Of a DNA stretch of 40,848 bases, positions 13-8,318 are shown one piece after another. Every line of letters starts with the position of its first letter. Position 1 is the stretch's first letter. Under the pieces are notes generated by a model that saw nothing but the letters and a program-made list of their open reading frames with translations, was not told the origin of the DNA and made no database searches. The position numbers and the translations under genes were made by a program. Source of the DNA: Methylobacter sp. (GTDB lineage: Bacteria > Pseudomonadota > Gammaproteobacteria > Methylococcales > Methylomonadaceae); NCBI RefSeq assembly GCF_004322395.1, contig NZ_SCTW01000151.1:1-40848 (forward strand). The letters run 5' to 3'.

Positions 13-876
13 ATGTCTACAAATAACGATTATTACATTCCGCATAAAGCCACTTGGCCGGTCGTTGGAACTGGCGGTTTGGTGATGATGCTGGCTGGAT
101 TTGCAAATTATTTAAACGGTTCAACAGCCGGTACGGCCTGGATGGCGTTGGGTCTGGTTGTGTTTATTATTATGCTGGCCGGATGGTTCACATTGCAGTC
201 CGGTGAAAGCGAATCAGGCATGTATAGTTCACAGGTAGGCATTTCCTATCGCATGGGCATGATGTGGTTTATTTTTTCAGAGATCATGTTTTTTGCCGTG
301 TTCTTCGGCGCACTTTGGTATACACGTAATTTATCGGTACCATGGCTAGGTGGAGAAGGCGCTAGAGCGGCAACTAAAGAACTATTGTGGCCTTCTTTTG
401 AAGCAGTCTGGCCTACCAATGGTCCCGGCAAAGTCGGTGGCGACTTTGAGCCCATGGGAGCATGGGGCTTGCCTTTTTTGAATACCTTAATATTGTTAAC
501 TAGTGGCGTATCCTGTACTTGGGCTCATCACGGACTGCTTGCAAAAAACCGTGACCAGTTAATTAAAGGACTAGCGGTTACTGTAGGTTTGGGGCTTTTG
601 TTTGTCGCATTCCAGGCATCCGAGTATCATGAAGCATATACCGAAATGGGTTTGACTTTGGGATCGGGTATTTACGGAACTACTTTTTTCATGTTGACCG
701 GTTTTCACGGTTTTCATGTTTGCGTAGGCGCTATTATTCTTAGTGTGGTACTGTTTCGTAGCTGGAAAGGTCACTTCAAGCCGGAAAACCATTTTGCTTT
801 TGAAGCAGCAGCTTGGTATTGGCATTTTGTTGACGTGGTATGGTTAGGATTATTTATATTTGTTTATGTAATTTAA
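13..876 (+). CDS. coxC: Cytochrome c oxidase subunit III (aa3-type)
   Basis: Subunit III of the haem-copper cytochrome c oxidase, an integral inner-membrane protein that stabilises the catalytic subunit I. The 287 residues carry about seven hydrophobic segments. Family hallmarks are visible: SEIMFFAVFFGALW near residue 90, the Glu-containing segment ASEYHEAY near 203, FFMLTGFHGFHV near 225, and the C-terminal WHFVDVVWLGLFIFVYV. The length suits an unfused proteobacterial subunit III. The start has a clear ribosome site (GGAAGG) just upstream. It is the first gene of the window, so subunits I and II and CtaG are presumably to the left, outside it. It is followed by a hairpin terminator and then SURF1 and haem A synthase genes, which fits an oxidase assembly operon. 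Confidence 0.96.
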   Translation: MSTNNDYYIPHKATWPVVGTGGLVMMLAGFANYLNGSTAGTAWMALGLVVFIIMLAGWFTLQSGESESGMYSSQVGISYRMGMMWFIFSEIMFFAVFFGALWYTRNLSVPWLGGEGARAATKELLWPSFEAVWPTNGPGKVGGDFEPMGAWGLPFLNTLILLTSGVSCTWAHHGLLAKNRDQLIKGLAVTVGLGLLFVAFQASEYHEAYTEMGLTLGSGIYGTTFFMLTGFHGFHVCVGAIILSVVLFRSWKGHFKPENHFAFEAAAWYWHFVDVVWLGLFIFVYVI

Positions 877-950: not shown

Positions 951-1199
951 TTATTTAACAGGAACGGCTGGTGTTTGGTGCATTCGAGCGCCCAGACCGT
1001 GAGGCGTGAACAACCCGGTTGCAAAAGCAATGAAAATAAAAATAAATAATATGATTGAGAGTGCAATGCGAAAAGTCAGCGCTTTGGCTGTTTTTTCGGA
1101 TTGTTCCTGAGTCTGATGTTTAACCAGATGGAATAGTGCTGAGCCCAGGCTGATAATTATTAGAATAAAGGCGATAATAACGATGCTTTTTATAATCAT
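951..1199 (-). CDS. DUF2909-like twin-TM membrane protein
   Basis: Small membrane protein of 82 residues with two hydrophobic segments (about residues 3-23 and 44-64) separated by a polar, charged loop (KHQTQEQSEKTAK). Size, topology and position between coxC and SURF1 match the DUF2909 family found in proteobacterial cytochrome oxidase operons. Its role is unknown; involvement in oxidase assembly is an inference from context. The frame is open to position 1307, but the first 36 residues of that longer version look non-coding. The methionine that starts the hydrophobic segment (MIIKSIVII) gives the usual family length. No strong ribosome site is visible at this start. It is encoded opposite to its neighbours. 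Confidence 0.7.
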   Translation of the reverse strand: MIIKSIVIIAFILIIISLGSALFHLVKHQTQEQSEKTAKALTFRIALSIILFIFIFIAFATGLFTPHGLGARMHQTPAVPVK

Positions 1200-1306
1200 G
1201 AGTACTGTTATGTCCGTTAATGGATAAGGTTTTTTGTATTCTCGGTTATTTAGCTGTCTGTGCCAATAGGATAAACAAAAAAGCATAATTTCCCGGATAC
1301 TAGCCA

Positions 1307-2029
1307 ATGAAGTTCAAACTCATCCCAACATTAGTTTATTTGTGTCTGTTACCGGTATTGATTGCGCTGGGAATGTGGCAATTAGACCGCTCAGAGCAGA
1401 AACGAGCATTTCTTGAAGCGCAAGAACAAGCGGTCATAGCAGAAACGCTGCATTTGTCGGCGGTTATTGAAAACAATACAGAAGCACTGAGATATAGAAA
1501 TGTCGAAGTTGCCGGCCGTTACGATGTAACGCATCAGTTTTTAATAGATAATCAAATCAGCGACGGGAAGGCAGGGTACTTTGTGTTGACGCCATTTATA
1601 TTGGCCGGGGAAACCAAGGCTGTTTTAGTAAACCGGGGCTGGGTTCCTTTAAATCCGGATCGATCGATTCTTCCTGATTTGCAGATTAAAAAGGCAGAAG
1701 CGATTATTACTGGGCGGATTAATAATTTTCCAAGCGTTGGTATAAAATTAGCCGGAGCGGAAATTCCAAGCGAAGGTTGGCCATCAATCGTTCAGGTGGT
1801 TGATAGTAACGTCTTAGCTGAGAAATTAGGCTATCCATTATTTCAATTCCAGATTGAATTGGCTAAAGAGTTACCTGATGGATATAAGCGGGAATGGCAT
1901 ACATCGACCATTATGCAGCCCGAGCAACATACAGCCTATGCAGTTCAGTGGTTTGCATTGGCATTGACACTAACGATCTTATTTATTTGGTACAGTTTTA
2001 AAAAGAACGATGCAAAATCAAAAGAATAA
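1307..2029 (+). CDS. SURF1 family cytochrome oxidase biogenesis protein
   Basis: SURF1/Shy1-type assembly factor, 240 residues, which helps insert haem a into cytochrome c oxidase subunit I. The architecture is the classic one: an N-terminal membrane segment (residues 5-22) ending in GMWQLDR, a periplasmic domain containing VLVNRGWVP near residue 106, and a second membrane segment near residues 212-229. The gene overlaps the next one by 20 bases, indicating translational coupling. Neighbours on both sides are oxidase genes, which supports the call. Confidence 0.93.
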   Translation: MKFKLIPTLVYLCLLPVLIALGMWQLDRSEQKRAFLEAQEQAVIAETLHLSAVIENNTEALRYRNVEVAGRYDVTHQFLIDNQISDGKAGYFVLTPFILAGETKAVLVNRGWVPLNPDRSILPDLQIKKAEAIITGRINNFPSVGIKLAGAEIPSEGWPSIVQVVDSNVLAEKLGYPLFQFQIELAKELPDGYKREWHTSTIMQPEQHTAYAVQWFALALTLTILFIWYSFKKNDAKSKE

Positions 2030-2606
2030 AAATCATATATTAATTCTGGTTATATTTGGAATGTCGGTTATTCCATTTTTAATCGCTTGGGGCTTAAAAG
2101 AACATCCGCAGTTCTTAAAAGGGCAAACAAATCATGGGCAGTTAATAACGCCGCCACTGACAACCGAACGCGCCGACCTAGGTGGCTTTGACCAGTTTTC
2201 AAAGGACAATATGTCCGAACTTTCCGGACACTGGCTGTTGGTAAATATTATTCCAAATAGCGATTGTAATGAGGCTTGTATTGAAGCTATTCATAAAACC
2301 AAGCAGATTCGGTTAATGTTAAATAAGGAGCTGACCCGTACCCGTCGGATTGTTATGGTCTTAAAAGACGTTGCGCCGGAAACAGCAAGCAAATGGTGGG
2401 AAGATGACAATACCTTATTACGAGTTAAAGCCAATGACGCCATTATCAAGAAAATTGCCGAGATCAGACAAGGCAATATTCCGGACGGTATGCTGCTGTT
2501 AATGGACCCGTTAGGTAATTTAATGATGCAGTATGAGCCGGGGTTCGATCCTTACAATGTAAAAAGCGATCTTATGCATCTTTTGCGAATCTCACAAATC
2601 GGATAG
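2010..2606 (+). CDS. Oxidase-cluster membrane protein with CxxxC motif
   Basis: A 198-residue protein with one N-terminal membrane anchor (about residues 9-28) and a soluble domain facing the periplasm. It belongs to the poorly characterised transmembrane proteins encoded between SURF1 and haem A synthase in gammaproteobacterial cox operons. The soluble part looks like a divergent thioredoxin/SCO fold: HWLLVNIIP is followed by a Cys-x3-Cys pair (C86 and C90), as in the copper chaperone SCO1, and a later segment (DGMLLLMDPLGNLMMQY) resembles the SCO strand before the metal-binding His. A copper or thiol role in oxidase assembly is inferred from the motif and context. It overlaps SURF1 and lies 10 bases before the next gene. 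Confidence 0.75.
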   Translation: MQNQKNKNHILILVIFGMSVIPFLIAWGLKEHPQFLKGQTNHGQLITPPLTTERADLGGFDQFSKDNMSELSGHWLLVNIIPNSDCNEACIEAIHKTKQIRLMLNKELTRTRRIVMVLKDVAPETASKWWEDDNTLLRVKANDAIIKKIAEIRQGNIPDGMLLLMDPLGNLMMQYEPGFDPYNVKSDLMHLLRISQIG

Positions 2607-2616
2607 TGGAAATAAA

Positions 2617-4632
2617 ATGTTTAGAAAAATAGCTCTGTTTAGCGTTGTTTTAGCTTTAATAGTTGTCATAGTAGGCGCATATGTCCGGCTATCCGGGGCA
2701 GGTTTGGGTTGCCCTGATTGGCCTGGGTGTTATGGACAAGCCATTCCCTTCGACTTCGCTCAGGGCGGGGTTAGCGATCAAGCCGATTTTAAAGCGCATG
2801 CTGCGGAAGCATTTCCCGGTCAAACTCCGGATATTGCAAAAGCTTGGAAGGAAATGACGCATCGTTATCTGGCGGCAGTCTTAGGTCTGACTGTTTTGGT
2901 GTTGGCGTTGCTCTCATGGCGTCAAAAACAAAACCGCCTAACAGTTGTTACGGCCACATTCGGCCTGGTAGTTTTGATAGTCTTGCAAGCGTTTTTAGGC
3001 ATGTGGGCCGTGAAATTGCATGTTATGCCTATTGTTGTAACCGGCCATTTGTTGTTGGGTATGATGACTTTTTGGCTGTTGTTTTGGCTGTATTTGCGGG
3101 TTAATCCAGAAGTTTCGCTGTTAACCGTTCGCAACAAGGGCTTAGTACTGTTTGCCCGATTCGCAATGCCGGTCTTGTTATTAGAGATTGTTTTAGGCGG
3201 ATGGGTTAGCGCTAATTATGCCGCTTTAGCCTGTTCCGGCTTTCCTCAGTGTAATGGCTCATGGTGGCCCCAAGCCGATTATCAAACGGCACTGGATTTG
3301 TTTCGCGGATTAGACACAGGTTATACCGGTGTCATAGCATTCGATGCGCAGGTTGCCGCAAACTGGCTGCACCGGGTTGGAGCGCTAATCAGTTTTGTCG
3401 TACTCACCCTGCTGATGTTGAATGCAACATCAGCACATCATCCGAAACCGGTAAGAAGAGCCGGCCTATGGCTGAGTGTGCTGCTGTTGATGCAAATCGG
3501 TTCGGGTATTATTGGTGTTAAACTCGGGGAACCTTTATGGGTAGCGGTAGCCCATAATGCTTTTGCAGCATTGTTAATGTTGCCGTTGATTGCCATCAGT
3601 TTTTACAGTCGATACGGCTATGTTGAAGAGCTAAAGCGTCCCAAAGCCGAGCCGCAACGGGAAGGCGTAGTTGTACCCACAGCGGAAGAAGCTTATCCGG
3701 TAGCGGAACCCGAGCCGTTATATTTACGTCTTAGAACGCAGTTAAAGCGGACCCGTTCAGGCCTAAGTGGAGTTTTGGCGCATATACCTATCGGCCGGCA
3801 AGAAATTGACAAGGATTTGCTGGAAGAGATTGAAGCTAGTTTGTTAATGGCTGATATAGGTGTTGATGCGACCACAGAAATAATCAAGCGTTTGACTGAA
3901 AGCGTTGAACGCCACCAGCTTAATGATGGTGAAGCGTTATCAGCCGCATTAAAGCAGGAACTGCTGAGCATGCTCAGGCCTTGCAGCAAAAATTTGCGGA
4001 TTCCAAAACAGGATAAACCTTTTGTTATCCTGGTTGTCGGCGTTAATGGCGCGGGAAAAACCACAACCATCGGTAAATTGGCCAAACGTTTGCAGATACA
4101 AGGTCATAGCGTTATGTTAGCCGCCGGAGATACGTTCAGAGCCGCAGCGGTCGAGCAATTACAGACCTGGGGCGAACGTAATAATATTCATGTGGTCGCC
4201 CAGCATACCGGCGCCGATTCGGCATCCGTTATTTATGACGCAGTGCAATCTGCGCAGGCAAAAGGCGTTGATGTGTTAATTGCCGATACTGCGGGACGTT
4301 TGCATACCAAATCCAATCTGATGGATGAATTGAAAAAAGTAAAACGGATTATCAGCAAACTGGATGAAACGGCGCCTCATGAAGTGCTGTTGGTATTGGA
4401 TGCCGGCACCGGACAAAATGCCTTGTCGCAAGCAAAATTGTTTAATGAAGCTGTCGAATTGACAGGACTGGCTTTGACCAAACTCGATGGTACGGCAAAA
4501 GGCGGGGTGATTTTCGCGCTCGCCAAACAATTTGGAATTCCGATTCGTTTTATAGGAATTGGCGAAGGTATTGATGATCTGCAGGATTTCGATGCGGATG
4601 CTTTTGTAAATGCATTGTTTGTCAAAGACTAA
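2617..4632 (+). CDS. ctaA::ftsY: Haem A synthase (COX15/CtaA) fused to SRP receptor FtsY
   Basis: One uninterrupted frame of 671 residues joins two normally separate proteins. Residues 1-330 form a complete COX15/CtaA haem A synthase (converts haem O to haem A in the membrane): about eight hydrophobic segments and the four expected histidines, H82 (EMTHRY), H144 (GHLLLG), H252 (LHRVGAL) and H313 (AHNAF). Residues 331-370 are a charged, proline-rich linker. Residues 375-671 form a complete FtsY NG GTPase, the receptor for the signal recognition particle: P-loop GVNGAGKTT at 475, DTFRAAAVEQL at 505, DTAGR at 557, TKLDGTAKGG at 621. No ATG/GTG/TTG with a good ribosome site exists between the two halves, so FtsY is probably made only as the fusion. 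The usual acidic A domain of FtsY is nearly absent; the COX15 membrane domain would replace it as anchor. The haem O synthase gene that often follows COX15 is missing here. The downstream order ftsE-ftsX-rpoH is the standard one for ftsY. A true gene fusion by deletion or rearrangement is likely; an assembly chimera cannot be excluded. Confidence 0.9.
   Translation: MFRKIALFSVVLALIVVIVGAYVRLSGAGLGCPDWPGCYGQAIPFDFAQGGVSDQADFKAHAAEAFPGQTPDIAKAWKEMTHRYLAAVLGLTVLVLALLSWRQKQNRLTVVTATFGLVVLIVLQAFLGMWAVKLHVMPIVVTGHLLLGMMTFWLLFWLYLRVNPEVSLLTVRNKGLVLFARFAMPVLLLEIVLGGWVSANYAALACSGFPQCNGSWWPQADYQTALDLFRGLDTGYTGVIAFDAQVAANWLHRVGALISFVVLTLLMLNATSAHHPKPVRRAGLWLSVLLLMQIGSGIIGVKLGEPLWVAVAHNAFAALLMLPLIAISFYSRYGYVEELKRPKAEPQREGVVVPTAEEAYPVAEPEPLYLRLRTQLKRTRSGLSGVLAHIPIGRQEIDKDLLEEIEASLLMADIGVDATTEIIKRLTESVERHQLNDGEALSAALKQELLSMLRPCSKNLRIPKQDKPFVILVVGVNGAGKTTTIGKLAKRLQIQGHSVMLAAGDTFRAAAVEQLQTWGERNNIHVVAQHTGADSASVIYDAVQSAQAKGVDVLIADTAGRLHTKSNLMDELKKVKRIISKLDETAPHEVLLVLDAGTGQNALSQAKLFNEAVELTGLALTKLDGTAKGGVIFALAKQFGIPIRFIGIGEGIDDLQDFDADAFVNALFVKD
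2746..2765. repeat. Possible intragenic copy of a dispersed repeat
   Basis: The 20 bases here (beginning CCCTTCGAC and ending CTCAGGG) resemble one half of a CCTTCGAC...GCTCAGG dispersed repeat that I know from many bacterial genomes. They encode PFDFAQG, directly after the conserved CPDWPGCYGQ motif of COX15, where family members normally read straight into an Ala/Glu-rich stretch. The related unit at 11293-11350 is intergenic. The call rests on similarity by eye only. Confidence 0.35.
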
Positions 4633-4640
4633 AGAAGCTT

Positions 4641-5297
4641 ATGTTAAAGTTTGATAATGTCAGTATGAGGTACCCTGGCGCAGGCGATGTACTGCGTAAT
4701 GTCAGTTTTCATTTGCAGCGCGGTGAAATGGCATTTTTGACAGGACATTCCGGGGCTGGAAAAAGTACATTATTGAAATTAATTGCGCTGATCGAGCGTT
4801 GCAGTAGGGGGCAGGTTTTGCTGGACGGCGAAAGTCTCAACTTGGCTAAAGACAGACAAGTTCCTTATTTACGCAGGAAAGTGGGTTTGATCTTTCAGGA
4901 TTATAAACTGCTACAGGACAGGACGGTTTTTGATAATGTGGCCTTGCCATTAATAATAGCGGGTTACGGCCATCACGAAGTTTCCCGGAGAGTCAGAGCT
5001 TCATTGGACAAAGTCGGCCTATTAGGCAAAGAAAGAAAATATCCCGCTGTCTTGTCTGGTGGAGAGCAGCAACGGGTCGGCATCGCCAGGGCGGTGGTCA
5101 ATAAGCCGCCGATGATTTTGGCCGATGAGCCGACCGGAAATCTCGATCCTGAGTTGTCCGCCGAGATAATGCATCTGTTCGAACAGTTTCAACAAGTCGG
5201 TGTCACAATATTGATTGCCTCGCATGATATTTCATTGATTGCCCAAATGAATCATCGGATTTTAAAGTTGGATCACGGCCAGCTGGTGGCGAGCTAA
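4641..5297 (+). CDS. ftsE: Cell division ATP-binding protein FtsE
   Basis: ATPase subunit of the FtsEX complex, which couples septal ring constriction to peptidoglycan hydrolase activation at the inner membrane. The 218 residues contain the ABC hallmarks in order: Walker [10 protein letters not shown] (near residue 36), Q-loop FQDYKLL, signature [14 protein letters not shown], Walker [13 protein letters not shown], and the switch His in IASHD. The length matches the family. It starts 8 bases after the upstream fusion gene and is directly followed by ftsX, so the three are surely co-transcribed. Confidence 0.97.
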
Positions 5298-6296
5298 ATG
5301 ATGAAACACATTAATAAAAAGTCGGTTAAACAGGAGCCGCGTTGGCAAACTAAAATTTCCGGCGGCAATTTTGTCGATAAATTCCATGCTTATCGGAACC
5401 ATCATGCGCAAGCGTTATTTTCAAGCCTTGGACGATTAGTCGCATCACGATTCTCCTCTGCAATGACGATAATTGTTTTGGCGATTGCCATTTCGCTAGC
5501 CAGCGGCTTTTATATTCTGGTAGCGAATCTTCAGCAGTTGGCCGGCAATTTGGAAGCCAGCAATCAAATCTCACTGTTTATTAAAGATGAAATTTCAGAG
5601 GCAAGAGTCAATAAATTCGCCAATAGTATCAGGCAAAATTCGGACATTCAGGAAGTTAAATTAATTACCAAAGAGCAAGCGCTGGAAGAGTTTCAGTCAT
5701 ATAGCGGGTTCGGTGAAGCAATAAAAGCACTGGACAAAAATCCGCTACCGGTTGTCATTCAGGTGTTACCTAAAAACTCATTGGAAAATGAGCAGGCGCT
5801 TGAGGCTTTGCTTGATGATTTTAAGCGATCGGCAGAAGTTGATTTCGCTCAGATGGATATGCAATGGGTTAAGCGGTTGCAGTCCATTATGGAAGTGGCG
5901 CGGCGAGGCGTTACCCTATTAAGTTTACTACTGGGTGCTGGGGTGCTGTTTATTACAGCCAATACCATACGCCTGGAGTTATATAATCGCCGCGATGAAG
6001 TCGTGATCGCTAAACTGGTGGGAGCGACCAACGGGTTCATTCATAGGCCATTTTTATATAGTGGTTTTTGGATAGGTTTTTTTTCCGGTGTGACCGCATG
6101 GTTCATAGTCACAACGATCATGCTGATTTTAAAACAACCCATTGAAACACTTTCCAGGCTTTATGATAATGCTTTCCATATGTTGTTTTTGGGCTTTGCT
6201 GAAACACTGGCATTATTATTCATTTCATCTTTGCTGGGCGTGGTAGGTTCATGGATAGTGCTTCATTTCCAGCTTCAGCAATTAAAACCCGAGTAA
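5298..6296 (+). CDS. ftsX: Cell division protein FtsX
   Basis: Membrane subunit of FtsEX, 332 residues. A basic cytoplasmic N-terminus (about 50 residues) precedes the first membrane segment (near 55-77). A periplasmic loop of about 120 residues follows, which in the family contacts the amidase activator EnvC, and then three more membrane segments in the C-terminal half with the FtsX signature RLELYNRRDEVVIAKLVGAT. The ATG begins directly after the ftsE stop codon with no gap; a second ATG is the next codon, so the exact start could shift by one residue. Confidence 0.95.
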   Translation: MMKHINKKSVKQEPRWQTKISGGNFVDKFHAYRNHHAQALFSSLGRLVASRFSSAMTIIVLAIAISLASGFYILVANLQQLAGNLEASNQISLFIKDEISEARVNKFANSIRQNSDIQEVKLITKEQALEEFQSYSGFGEAIKALDKNPLPVVIQVLPKNSLENEQALEALLDDFKRSAEVDFAQMDMQWVKRLQSIMEVARRGVTLLSLLLGAGVLFITANTIRLELYNRRDEVVIAKLVGATNGFIHRPFLYSGFWIGFFSGVTAWFIVTTIMLILKQPIETLSRLYDNAFHMLFLGFAETLALLFISSLLGVVGSWIVLHFQLQQLKPE

Positions 6297-6317: not shown

Positions 6318-6344
6318 TTAGCACTCTTTGTTGCAGAGTGCTAG
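6318..6344 (+). promoter_or_regulatory. CIRCE element (HrcA operator) upstream of rpoH
   Basis: TTAGCACTC, nine spacer bases, GAGTGCTAG. The established CIRCE consensus is TTAGCACTC-N9-GAGTGCTAA, so 17 of 18 arm positions match and the spacer is exactly nine. It lies 33 bases before the likely rpoH start. A TTAGCA / TAGAAT pair (6318-6323 and 6342-6347, 18-bp spacing) would form a weak sigma-70-like promoter overlapping both arms, so bound HrcA would block it. A simple terminator for ftsX is less likely, since no T run follows the stem. Confidence 0.85.
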
Positions 6345-6377
6345 AATTCGAAAAAAATTTCTTACATGGGGGTTTCA

Positions 6378-7235
6378 ATGAGTAATGCACTAGCTTTACC
6401 TGTAAATTTATCGGTTGGAACATTTGACGCTTATCTAAATGTCGTCAGGCAAATGCCTAAATTGACGGTAGAACAGGAGCGCGAGTTAGCTATAAAGTTC
6501 AGAGATAATGGCGATTTGGAAGCTGCACGCGAGTTGGTAATGACCAATTTGCGTTTTGTAATTCACGTTGCCAGAGGCTACAGCGGTTATGGCTTATCCA
6601 TGCCCGATATTATTCAGGAAGGCAATATAGGCTTGATGAAAGCCGTTAAACGTTTCGATCCCGATATCGGCGTTCGTTTGGTTTCTTTTGCCGTACATTG
6701 GATTAAGGCCGAAATTCACGAGTATGTGATTAAAAACTGGGGCATCGTAAAAATTGCTACCACTAAAGCCCAGCGTAAGCTGTTCTTCAACTTGCGTAAA
6801 TCCAAGCAGGACTTAGGCTGGTTATCCAATGATGAAGCAGTGGCGATTGCCAACGATCTTGATGTCGATGTGAGCGCCGTTTACGAAATGGAAAAACGTC
6901 TGGGTAGCAAGGACATGTCTTTTGATATGTCGGCCGATGAATCGGCAGAGGACAGCTATGTCGCTCCGGCCAGCTATCTTCATCAACACGGTGCCGATCC
7001 TGCGGTATTGATTGAAAACTCGGATTGGGTAGGCCATGAGCAGGATTTGTTGGCCGATGCGATGGCGGAGTTGGACGAGCGGAGTCAGGATATTCTTTCA
7101 AGCCGTTGGCTGGTGGAGAAAAAAGCTACATTGCATGAGCTTGCCGAACGCTACAATGTTTCTGCAGAAAGAATCAGGCAACTGGAACAAAATGCGATGA
7201 AAAAATTAAGAGCAGCGGTTGAACTTGCTGCTTGA
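6378..7235 (+). CDS. rpoH: Heat-shock sigma factor RpoH (sigma-32)
   Basis: Alternative sigma factor that directs RNA polymerase to heat-shock promoters. From this start it is 285 residues, the usual length. Region 2 is intact (LRFVIHVARGYSGYGLSMPDI, then IIQEGNIGLMKAVKRFDP), followed by the RpoH box QRKLFFNLRK that separates sigma-32 from other group members. The C-terminal region 4 ends in SAERIRQLEQNAMKKLR. An ATG four codons upstream (6366) is in frame, but 6378 is preceded by a GGGGG ribosome site at five-base spacing. It follows ftsX as in most gammaproteobacteria. A CIRCE operator lies in front, so HrcA may add transcriptional control to the usual post-transcriptional control of sigma-32. 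Confidence 0.97.
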   Translation: MSNALALPVNLSVGTFDAYLNVVRQMPKLTVEQERELAIKFRDNGDLEAARELVMTNLRFVIHVARGYSGYGLSMPDIIQEGNIGLMKAVKRFDPDIGVRLVSFAVHWIKAEIHEYVIKNWGIVKIATTKAQRKLFFNLRKSKQDLGWLSNDEAVAIANDLDVDVSAVYEMEKRLGSKDMSFDMSADESAEDSYVAPASYLHQHGADPAVLIENSDWVGHEQDLLADAMAELDERSQDILSSRWLVEKKATLHELAERYNVSAERIRQLEQNAMKKLRAAVELAA

Positions 7236-7251
7236 TCGATAGTTGTACTAC

Positions 7252-7288
7252 AAAAAAGGCTTAACGATCTAATCGTTAAGCCTTTTTT
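7252..7288 (+). terminator. Strong terminator after rpoH
   Basis: A 16-bp perfect stem whose core is GGCTTAACGA / TCGTTAAGCC, with a five-base loop, flanked by A6 before and T6 after. The symmetry lets it work in both directions, ending rpoH and the convergent gene at 7322-7558. Confidence 0.93.
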
Positions 7289-7321
7289 ATTGTTTTACGG
7301 TTTAGCGTAGCCGTAAAAACT

Positions 7322-7558
7322 TTAGATTGGCCTGAGTATATCCAGAACTGCCTGAGCCTGTTTTGCAGTTTCCAAGCCGAGATTGGTCAGATACCCCCCG
7401 TCATCCAGTGAAATCAAACCTTTTTCGAATAGTCGATGCGTAGCGGCAATTGTTTCCGGCGAAGCCGTTTTATGTACCTTGATTCCTTCTTGAGTAGTGG
7501 TCAAATTGTAGCGAACCAGAACGTTCAGTTCTTCCACAATATCTTGGGTATAGGGCAT
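7322..7558 (-). CDS. TIGR02647 family small protein
   Basis: A 78-residue soluble protein with the conserved pattern NLTTTQEGIKVHKTASPETIAA and KGLI..DDGGYLT of the TIGR02647 family, which I know as an uncharacterised family from Pseudomonas-like gammaproteobacteria. The charge pattern and the DGGYLT turn suggest a winged-helix-like fold, but no function is established. It converges on rpoH across a shared terminator and is separated from the next gene by about 70 bases, so it may be its own unit. Confidence 0.8.
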   Translation of the reverse strand: MPYTQDIVEELNVLVRYNLTTTQEGIKVHKTASPETIAATHRLFEKGLISLDDGGYLTNLGLETAKQAQAVLDILRPI

Positions 7559-7628
7559 AGTAAATCCTCATGACTCATTGGTTTAAAATATTAGCATAAT
7601 GCTATTTATACAGAAGGAGTATCTTTTT

Positions 7629-8318
7629 TTACGCTGTCTTTTTTCTAGCGACGATCACTCCGTCACGCGTCGGATTGATAAAAGCGTCGAATTCAGGGTC
7701 ATTAAAAATTAACTCATTGTGTTTAATAATCGCCTCAGTCCAGCCGGGAAAAATATCAGTATAGTTTTCCACGGCTACCCGTCCGCGCCAAAGCACATTA
7801 TCGGCAATGTAAAGCCCGCCGGGGCGAATTCTGTTTTTAGCCATAAGCCATATTTCCGGATAGTCTCCCTTATCGACATCGTTATAGCAGATATCGAAAA
7901 AGCCTTCGGTCCGGGCAAAAACTTCCTGGGCCATGCCTACCCGAAAATTGATTCGATCCCATAAATTGGCGGCACCGAGATATTGTTCGGCTTTCTCTTG
8001 ATTCAGAAAGTCGGCATCGGTGCAGATTACTTGGCCTTTGGGGCCCACAGCCTTGGCAAACCAATAGGCTGAATAACCGTAACCGCTGCCAAATTCAAAT
8101 ACCCGTTCAGCATTGATCATTTTGGCCTGCGATTCAATAAAAGCGCCGACCAAACGGCCAATAATAGGAAAGTTGTTTTTTTGCGCCAGCTCTTCCATAT
8201 CGGTTAACACCGGATGATCAGTACGGCGTAGTAAGCCGTGCATGTAATTTTCAATGATCGGATTAACCGGATTCAATATGCCGGGATTTAAAACGGTTGG
8301 AGATTCTAGATCGGCCAT
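7629..8318 (-). CDS. SAM-dependent O-methyltransferase
   Basis: Class I methyltransferase of 229 residues, resembling the small bacterial and caffeoyl-CoA O-methyltransferases (methyltransferase family 3). The SAM-binding motif I is RVFEFGSGYGYSAYW near residue 70. Motif II acid residues follow in VICTDAD. A later FFDICYNDVDKGDYPEIW segment corresponds to the metal/substrate-binding DxDK-type motif of the family, and RIRPGGLYIADNVLWRG follows. The substrate is not deducible. It sits outside the APE cluster and is not obviously part of it. Confidence 0.85.
   Translation of the reverse strand: MADLESPTVLNPGILNPVNPIIENYMHGLLRRTDHPVLTDMEELAQKNNFPIIGRLVGAFIESQAKMINAERVFEFGSGYGYSAYWFAKAVGPKGQVICTDADFLNQEKAEQYLGAANLWDRINFRVGMAQEVFARTEGFFDICYNDVDKGDYPEIWLMAKNRIRPGGLYIADNVLWRGRVAVENYTDIFPGWTEAIIKHNELIFNDPEFDAFINPTRDGVIVARKKTA

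Follow-up and report, generated by a model that had tools for sequence, protein, structure and literature searches.

The locus described here raises the question of how the SRP receptor FtsY comes to share a single reading frame with a heme A synthase of the COX15/CtaA family, and what the enzyme part would do there. FtsY, the docking protein for ribosomes at the cell membrane, is essential, and whether it needs to cycle between cytosol and membrane has been debated largely with engineered Escherichia coli constructs. The window, by which we mean the whole stretch of DNA analyzed (40,848 nucleotides from a Methylobacter sp.), carries the fusion gene between genes of cytochrome oxidase assembly and the ftsE-ftsX-rpoH genes (Table 1).

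To begin with the architecture, a sequence-only reading had recognized, within a single frame, COX15 followed by an entire FtsY NG domain, which is borne out by Pfam, by NCBIfam, and by the alignment of the four haem histidines. In Pfam, COX15-CtaA scores 232.6 bits (cut-off 29.9) over residues 4-322, followed by SRP54_N at residues 393-449 and the SRP54 GTPase at residues 468-668, and the NCBIfam equivalog for ftsY (TIGR00064) is matched with 371.7 bits (cut-off 260.7). The NCBIfam heme A synthase equivalog, by its name a model of the alphaproteobacterial type, is not reached (38.1 bits against a cut-off of 550). The C-terminal part aligns with E. coli FtsY across the NG domain and, in fact, the structural comparison by Foldseek of the modelled NG domain with that of E. 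coli FtsY (6cqp) gave a TM-score of 0.91 by target length with 62% identity. The AlphaFold2 model of the fusion (pLDDT 81) shows eight long helices in its first half, then a low-confidence stretch at residues 337-363, and then the NG domain, with a pTM of 0.54, such that the mutual placement of the domains is not fixed by the model. Since the 50 Foldseek matches listed for the fusion model were FtsY and SRP chains only, support for the COX15 fold comes from the sequence and the helix predictions. Here, hydropathy gave eight hydrophobic segments in 69 of 95 fusions and seven to nine in 93 of them, this 95-row set being the one also used below for start codons and dN/dS, and one whose motif filter missed Methylomonas-type rows.

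Table 1. Features of the fusion gene and its neighbors in the window.
Feature	Position	Strand	Basis or remark
Cytochrome c oxidase subunit III	13..876	+	PF00510
DUF2909 protein	951..1307	-	PF11137
SURF1	1307..2029	+	PF02104
198-aa protein	2010..2606	+	no Pfam or NCBIfam match; beside COX15 in fused and unfused loci
COX15-FtsY fusion gene	2617..4632	+	ATG start, 671 aa, 72.9 kDa calculated; sole FtsY found in the genome
COX15/CtaA domain, residues 4-322	2626..3582	+	Pfam PF02628, AlphaFold2 helices, hydropathy; eight predicted transmembrane helices
H82, substrate-haem site of N half (B. subtilis H60)	2860..2862	+	alignment to 6a2j; kept in 73/108
H144, substrate-haem site of N half (B. subtilis H123)	3046..3048	+	alignment to 6a2j; kept in 68/108
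H252, cofactor haem b ligand of C half (B. subtilis H216)	3370..3372	+	alignment to 6a2j; kept in 107/108
H313, cofactor haem b ligand of C half (B. subtilis H278)	3553..3555	+	alignment to 6a2j; kept in 107/108
Linker, residues 333-366	3613..3714	+	variable, acidic; pLDDT under 50 at 337-363
FtsY alphaN1-type helix region, retained	3718..3780	+	invariant residues; position of EGFFGRLK..L.KTR in unfused FtsY
FtsY NG GTPase domain, residues 393-668	3793..4620	+	Pfam, NCBIfam, alignment to E. coli FtsY, Foldseek
ftsE, 8 bases after the fusion	4641..5297	+	TIGR02673 over cut-off
ftsX	5298..6296	+	TIGR00439 over cut-off
CIRCE-like element before rpoH	6318..6344	+	1 mismatch; 0 expected
rpoH	6366..7235	+	TIGR02392 over cut-off

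The A domain differs between FtsY proteins, and membership of the family does not require it. Its replacement by COX15, as the sequence-only reading had it, holds for the N-terminal peptide: the MFGFGKKK terminus, which in six unfused FtsY proteins is separated from the alphaN1 helix by a short segment, is missing from the fusion, and COX15 occupies that place. The alphaN1 helix region, on the other hand, is retained ahead of the N domain, with LY in place of the FF of EGFF, and six of its residues (R371, L372, Q375, L376, T379, and R380) are invariant in 53 rows. From the AlphaFold2 helices and this comparison with unfused FtsY, the proposed anchoring of FtsY through a polytopic respiratory-enzyme domain is likewise predicted.

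We then asked whether the cell has any other SRP receptor. The window genome (4.59 Mb in 157 contigs, listed as 100% complete) contains one FtsY, with the other matches being ffh (TIGR00959) and FlhF (TIGR03499), both over cut-off, and a separate COX15. Across the order, the ftsY cut-off is passed in 57 of 61 genomes, in 51 of them by a frame of 565-864 aa and in six by one of 343-367 aa, and no second FtsY over the curated cut-off was found in any of these 57. A second ftsY elsewhere, for which the sequence-only reading had proposed a search, was rejected on the search of the window genome and on the single match in each of the 57, and so the fusion is the one FtsY found.

As regards distribution, other proteins of this kind, whose existence had been left to a search, occur across six families of the order: in a sample of 151 genomes, a match crosses the junction in one frame in 124 of 131 genomes of these families. 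In five more, a frame of 651-787 aa at first aligned with the FtsY part only, and all five were found to hold a COX15 part in the same frame, some of them strongly diverged. As for the remaining two, G482 had no match at the threshold used and G470 was classed as neither fused nor unfused. The fusion is found in the genus and family of the window as well as in further families, with named isolates including Methylobacter tundripaludum SV96, Methylotuvimicrobium buryatense 5G, Methylomonas methanica, and Methylovulum miyakonense; in 80 of the 393 confirmed loci, the match starts from residue 1 in 73. One locus (L214, position 1089 on) carries a fusion whose COX15 part is strongly diverged and still keeps the Cys pair of the C half and both histidines. 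Two additional families, f7 (18 genomes, 17 matched) and f8 (two genomes), have a separate FtsY, with frames 237-367 aa long; the shortest of these (G049) is truncated by the contig end, while the ctaA of that genome ends by itself in a frame of 333 aa. Class-wide, the matches listed for 369 genomes include three that cross the junction, all from this order, in a search that a strongly diverged or independent fusion could escape.

That the fusion is an artefact of assembly or sequencing has a practically negligible probability, as the same junction recurs in many independently assembled isolates and MAGs, among them the single-contig genomes G039 and G054, and we regard this explanation as ruled out by the distribution. 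Indeed, with 124 of 131 genomes from six families matching across the junction, the fusion is neither an artefact nor a recent deletion. The order includes methane oxidizers, but a connection of the fusion with methane oxidation, by way of the Cu-monooxygenase family PF02461, was rejected, for this family is also matched in unfused genomes (12 of 18 in f7 and both in f8) and does not separate the two groups. No description of a COX15-FtsY protein was found by title in the open-access literature searched, in keeping with what the sequence-only reading had supposed, though the architecture may already be visible in protein databases.

How the junction arose is best approached from the unfused families. 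There, ftsY-ftsE-ftsX-rpoH converges on ctaA-(unnamed)-SURF1-coxC in all five loci that hold both, with the same genes within about 5-10 kb, yet as convergent and separate genes, with an FtsY that begins MFGFGKKK and, in the three loci checked, with ctaB (heme o synthase over cut-off) between the two operons and adjoining ctaA. Moreover, four distant genomes (G077, G178, G180, and G181) have ftsY and ctaA facing each other within 20 kb, by reason of which this order looks ancestral. Beside the fusion gene ctaB is absent, as had been noted, but it is not missing from the genome, where it lies on another contig (C97; TIGR01473, 313.8 bits, cut-off 210.3). A simple deletion of ctaB at the junction was accordingly discarded as a candidate, and the local deletion that the sequence-only reading had invoked gives way to another event, for the fusion is old enough to span six families, and, since ctaB-ctaA converges on ftsY-ftsE-ftsX-rpoH in the unfused families, its probable cause is an inversion in which ctaB was displaced. 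The fusion would have arisen once, or been fixed early, when such an inversion set ftsY-ftsE-ftsX-rpoH head-to-tail behind ctaA and displaced ctaB. In an FtsY tree, holding the 108 distinct fusions together gave a likelihood above that of the free quick search (p-AU 0.857), by which a single origin is not rejected; the quick tree has long branches and serves as a guide only.

Turning to the haem sites, we mapped the residues by alignment to Bacillus subtilis CtaA (6a2j), the N-terminal bundle of which is described as the catalytic site for haem O (E57, H60, and H123) and the C-terminal bundle as binding haem b via H216 and H278 (PMC8239418, PMC12808453). In the window protein, E79, H82, H144, H252, and H313 are all present and eight helices are predicted, and the two haem sites and the Cys pairs are alike by alignment to the B. 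subtilis protein, from which the fusion differs in its C-terminal FtsY and in the loss of N-half catalytic residues in many relatives. Among the 108 distinct fusions (132 frames in 138 loci, window included), E79 is kept in 42, H82 and H144 together in 59, and the complete E79-H82-H144 triad in 32, with 76 thereby lacking at least one of the three, and the first Cys pair is kept in 75, the second in 106, and H252 with H313 in 107. On the quick FtsY tree, the triad requires at least 15 changes and the haem b pair one. The M. buryatense 5G fusion, for example, carries R in place of H82 and Q in place of H144, and a degenerate relative (L091) was modelled by AlphaFold2 with moderate confidence (pLDDT 72). 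Both haem b histidines are lost in L093, where the fusion is still present, and the second Cys pair is lost in L093 and in L131, whose alignment is doubtful. The complete haem A synthase half that had been read from the window sequence is therefore a property of this species and not of the fusions as a group. Judged from sequence, those fusions without the catalytic E-H-H are CtaA homologs that should not be named heme A synthases on that ground alone, and many 'heme A synthase' domains annotated in this order may not be synthases. However, Asn is reported to occupy the H1 position naturally (PMC12808453), and a change at H82 does not, for that reason, always mean inactivity.

Unfused CtaA proteins of the class served as the control. 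A first set comprised the 30 best-matching ones, in which all nine residues are kept in 30 of 30, and which, being picked by similarity, leans toward intact proteins; it was widened by 28 places to 58, with the two places of the window genome and seven weak matches left aside. All 58 keep the haem b pair and 55 have the whole triad, and so triad decay is far more common in fusions (32 of 108 complete versus 55 of 58; Fisher p 2e-17, with rows that are not independent). The three unfused CtaA with a broken triad (L231 and L241, both from G139, and L244), which by their sequences may be non-synthase relatives of CtaA, keep the haem b pair, and hence its retention is not special to fusions and, alone, is no evidence of a role in FtsY. 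Given these exceptions and the free CtaA types with E57K and H123N that are listed in one survey (PMC8239418), decay of the N half is perhaps a general fate of spare CtaA copies.

Selection on the three parts of the protein was compared by dN/dS in closely related pairs, which are not independent of each other, from the 95-row set. For the N half, the median was 0.138 where the triad is intact in both members (80 pairs) and 0.236 where H82 or H144 is lost in both (32 pairs), whereas the C half (0.124 and 0.123) and FtsY (0.033 and 0.034) hardly differ between the two classes; the 24 of 136 pairs in neither class gave 0.193 for the N half and 0.143 for the C half. With 0.236 set against 0.138, the decayed N half is relaxed yet still constrained. 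Here, then, an enzyme has apparently lost its active site repeatedly, with the fold and one haem site preserved.

These patterns lead us to the reading that we favor as likely, which is that the fusion is a permanently membrane-anchored SRP receptor, the anchor being a haem A synthase that is intact here and probably decommissioned in many relatives. Bearing on this is the separate COX15 (E below 1e-100) that is found in 40 of 41 fused genomes of at least 90% completeness and in none of six such unfused genomes. It is also absent from four fused or incomplete genomes under 90% (G013, G015, G017, and G050). Its TM2 motif is EYxNR, in which Asn replaces the first substrate-haem histidine; in L117, such a separate COX15 with EYxNR lies at 6619-7668 on the minus strand, of a kind conserved in fused genomes and absent from the unfused families. 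Haem A is probably still needed, as 53 of the 61 order genomes have a ctaD that passes the TIGR02891 cut-off, and the second COX15 likely supplies it where the fused one has decayed. With that second copy present, the N-terminal catalytic half would be dispensable and could be lost repeatedly in relatives, and the domain, with its helices and cofactor haem b site kept, would serve them as an anchor, probably a haem b-bearing one. In the window species, where the catalytic residues are intact, the COX15 domain may still make haem A.

Alternatively, and less probably, the fused COX15 could still supply heme A to the aa3 oxidase encoded in its operon, with the fusion serving mainly to couple expression or to place oxidase assembly beside membrane insertion. 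The intact residues of the window protein, encoded downstream of oxidase subunit III and SURF1, agree with such a bifunctional enzyme, as do the 32 fusions with complete triads and, in particular, G040, the one exception among the 41 fused genomes, which is without a separate COX15 and has the full triad in its fused domain. This is countered by the 76 of 108 fusions in which at least one of E79, H82, and H144 is gone, by the second COX15 in nearly all good fused genomes, and by the persistence of the fusion in genomes whose ctaD lies far from it (G039, G054, and G060).

For the anchored receptor, it also matters whether the two parts stay together. The fusion might be genetic only, with cleavage in the linker or an internal start releasing an ordinary FtsY, and the variable linker with its very low model confidence would suit this; moreover, E. 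coli FtsY is reported to be cut near the A/N boundary. As the sequence-only reading had stated, no credible internal start is found in the window, no start codon in the stretch from the last helix to the N domain having a Shine-Dalgarno-like sequence. Among 95 distinct fusions, 18 do have an ATG, GTG, or TTG with such a sequence in the scanned stretch, though at scattered positions, while an ATG so preceded occurs in one and no position is common to more than three, and an internal start for free FtsY was accordingly rejected for want of a conserved candidate among the 95. Furthermore, purifying selection acts on the membrane part also in fusions that have lost catalytic residues, something for which a leader that is thrown away would have little need, and this disfavors a polyprotein, which we deem unlikely. 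A single chain in vivo, translated from the ATG in Table 1, is what we infer instead.

A further possibility is that the haem b bundle of a decommissioned synthase, as a sensor of haem, redox state, or oxygen or as an obligatory cofactor site, controls the GTPase of FtsY or its docking at SecYEG. The near-universal H252 and H313 (107 of 108) and the unchanged dN/dS of the C half, next to a haem site that decays, speak for this, but haem b may be needed just for folding of the bundle, the same histidine pair persists in the unfused CtaA whose triads are broken, and L093 keeps the fusion without either histidine, all of which make us consider this quite improbable. If true, a haem-controlled SRP receptor would couple the insertion of membrane proteins to the supply of haem or to redox state.

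Under the anchored-receptor reading, then, a single polypeptide would run from a polytopic domain of the haem A synthase type, whose C terminus lies on the cytoplasmic side, through a short acidic linker and the alphaN1 helix to the NG GTPase, and, as the sole SRP receptor of the cell, would stand in for the soluble, lipid-cycling FtsY. The COX15 part would take over from the A domain's N-terminal peptide and keep the receptor permanently in the membrane, and the retained alphaN1 helix would preserve the switch for SRP-dependent activation. There are precedents for both aspects in what is reported of engineered E. coli FtsY, which works when permanently tethered by a transmembrane domain (PMC2780400), and in which a transmembrane anchor rescues NG, with a form lacking alphaN1 being strongly defective (PMC5533587); the natural fusion retains the part that the engineered protein needs. 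In such constructs, NG is held for good by membrane helices and is functional, as proposed for the fusion, although those tethers were made in the laboratory and the fusion is a natural receptor and the sole one found in its genomes. Gram-positive and archaeal FtsY proteins described with a transmembrane or extended lipid-binding helix, such as the hydrophobic alphaA1 of Streptomyces lividans, also have NG held at the membrane by the N terminus (PMC2780400, PMC5533587), but by one helix or lipid-binding motif, as against the eight-helix protein of a haem enzyme family seen here. Likewise, COX15 is joined to another protein in the CtaA-CtaB fusions on record (PMC8239418, PMC12808453), where the partner belongs to the same pathway rather than being the SRP receptor. 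What the order offers is a natural counterpart in six families, where the one receptor found seems to be fixed in the membrane for good and still has its alphaN1 switch. This makes the question of FtsY cycling approachable in a cultured methanotroph, for instance M. buryatense 5G, whose fused synthase is without H82 and H144.

Lastly, the gene order had suggested that expression of the genes downstream, possibly including rpoH, is tied to the oxidase operon. For rpoH, this is weakened by the CIRCE-like element, TTAGCACTC-N9-GAGTGCTAG, that lies between ftsX and rpoH and by the hrcA gene present in the window genome, given which rpoH need not depend on the oxidase operon and is probably controlled by HrcA; the distant ctaD of some relatives points the same way. 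The CIRCE core recurs in 60 of 215 loci, in many of them about 1.7 kb past the fusion gene. Two minor observations concern the window itself. After rpoH, a strong terminator-like hairpin of 17 pairs followed by a T run occupies positions 7252-7288. Positions 2747-2764, which fall in the first extracellular loop of COX15 (FDFAQGG), hold the repeat CCTTCGACTTCGCTCAGG, which, with at most one mismatch, occurs at eight places in the genome, this one included, as compared with none for the reversed control.
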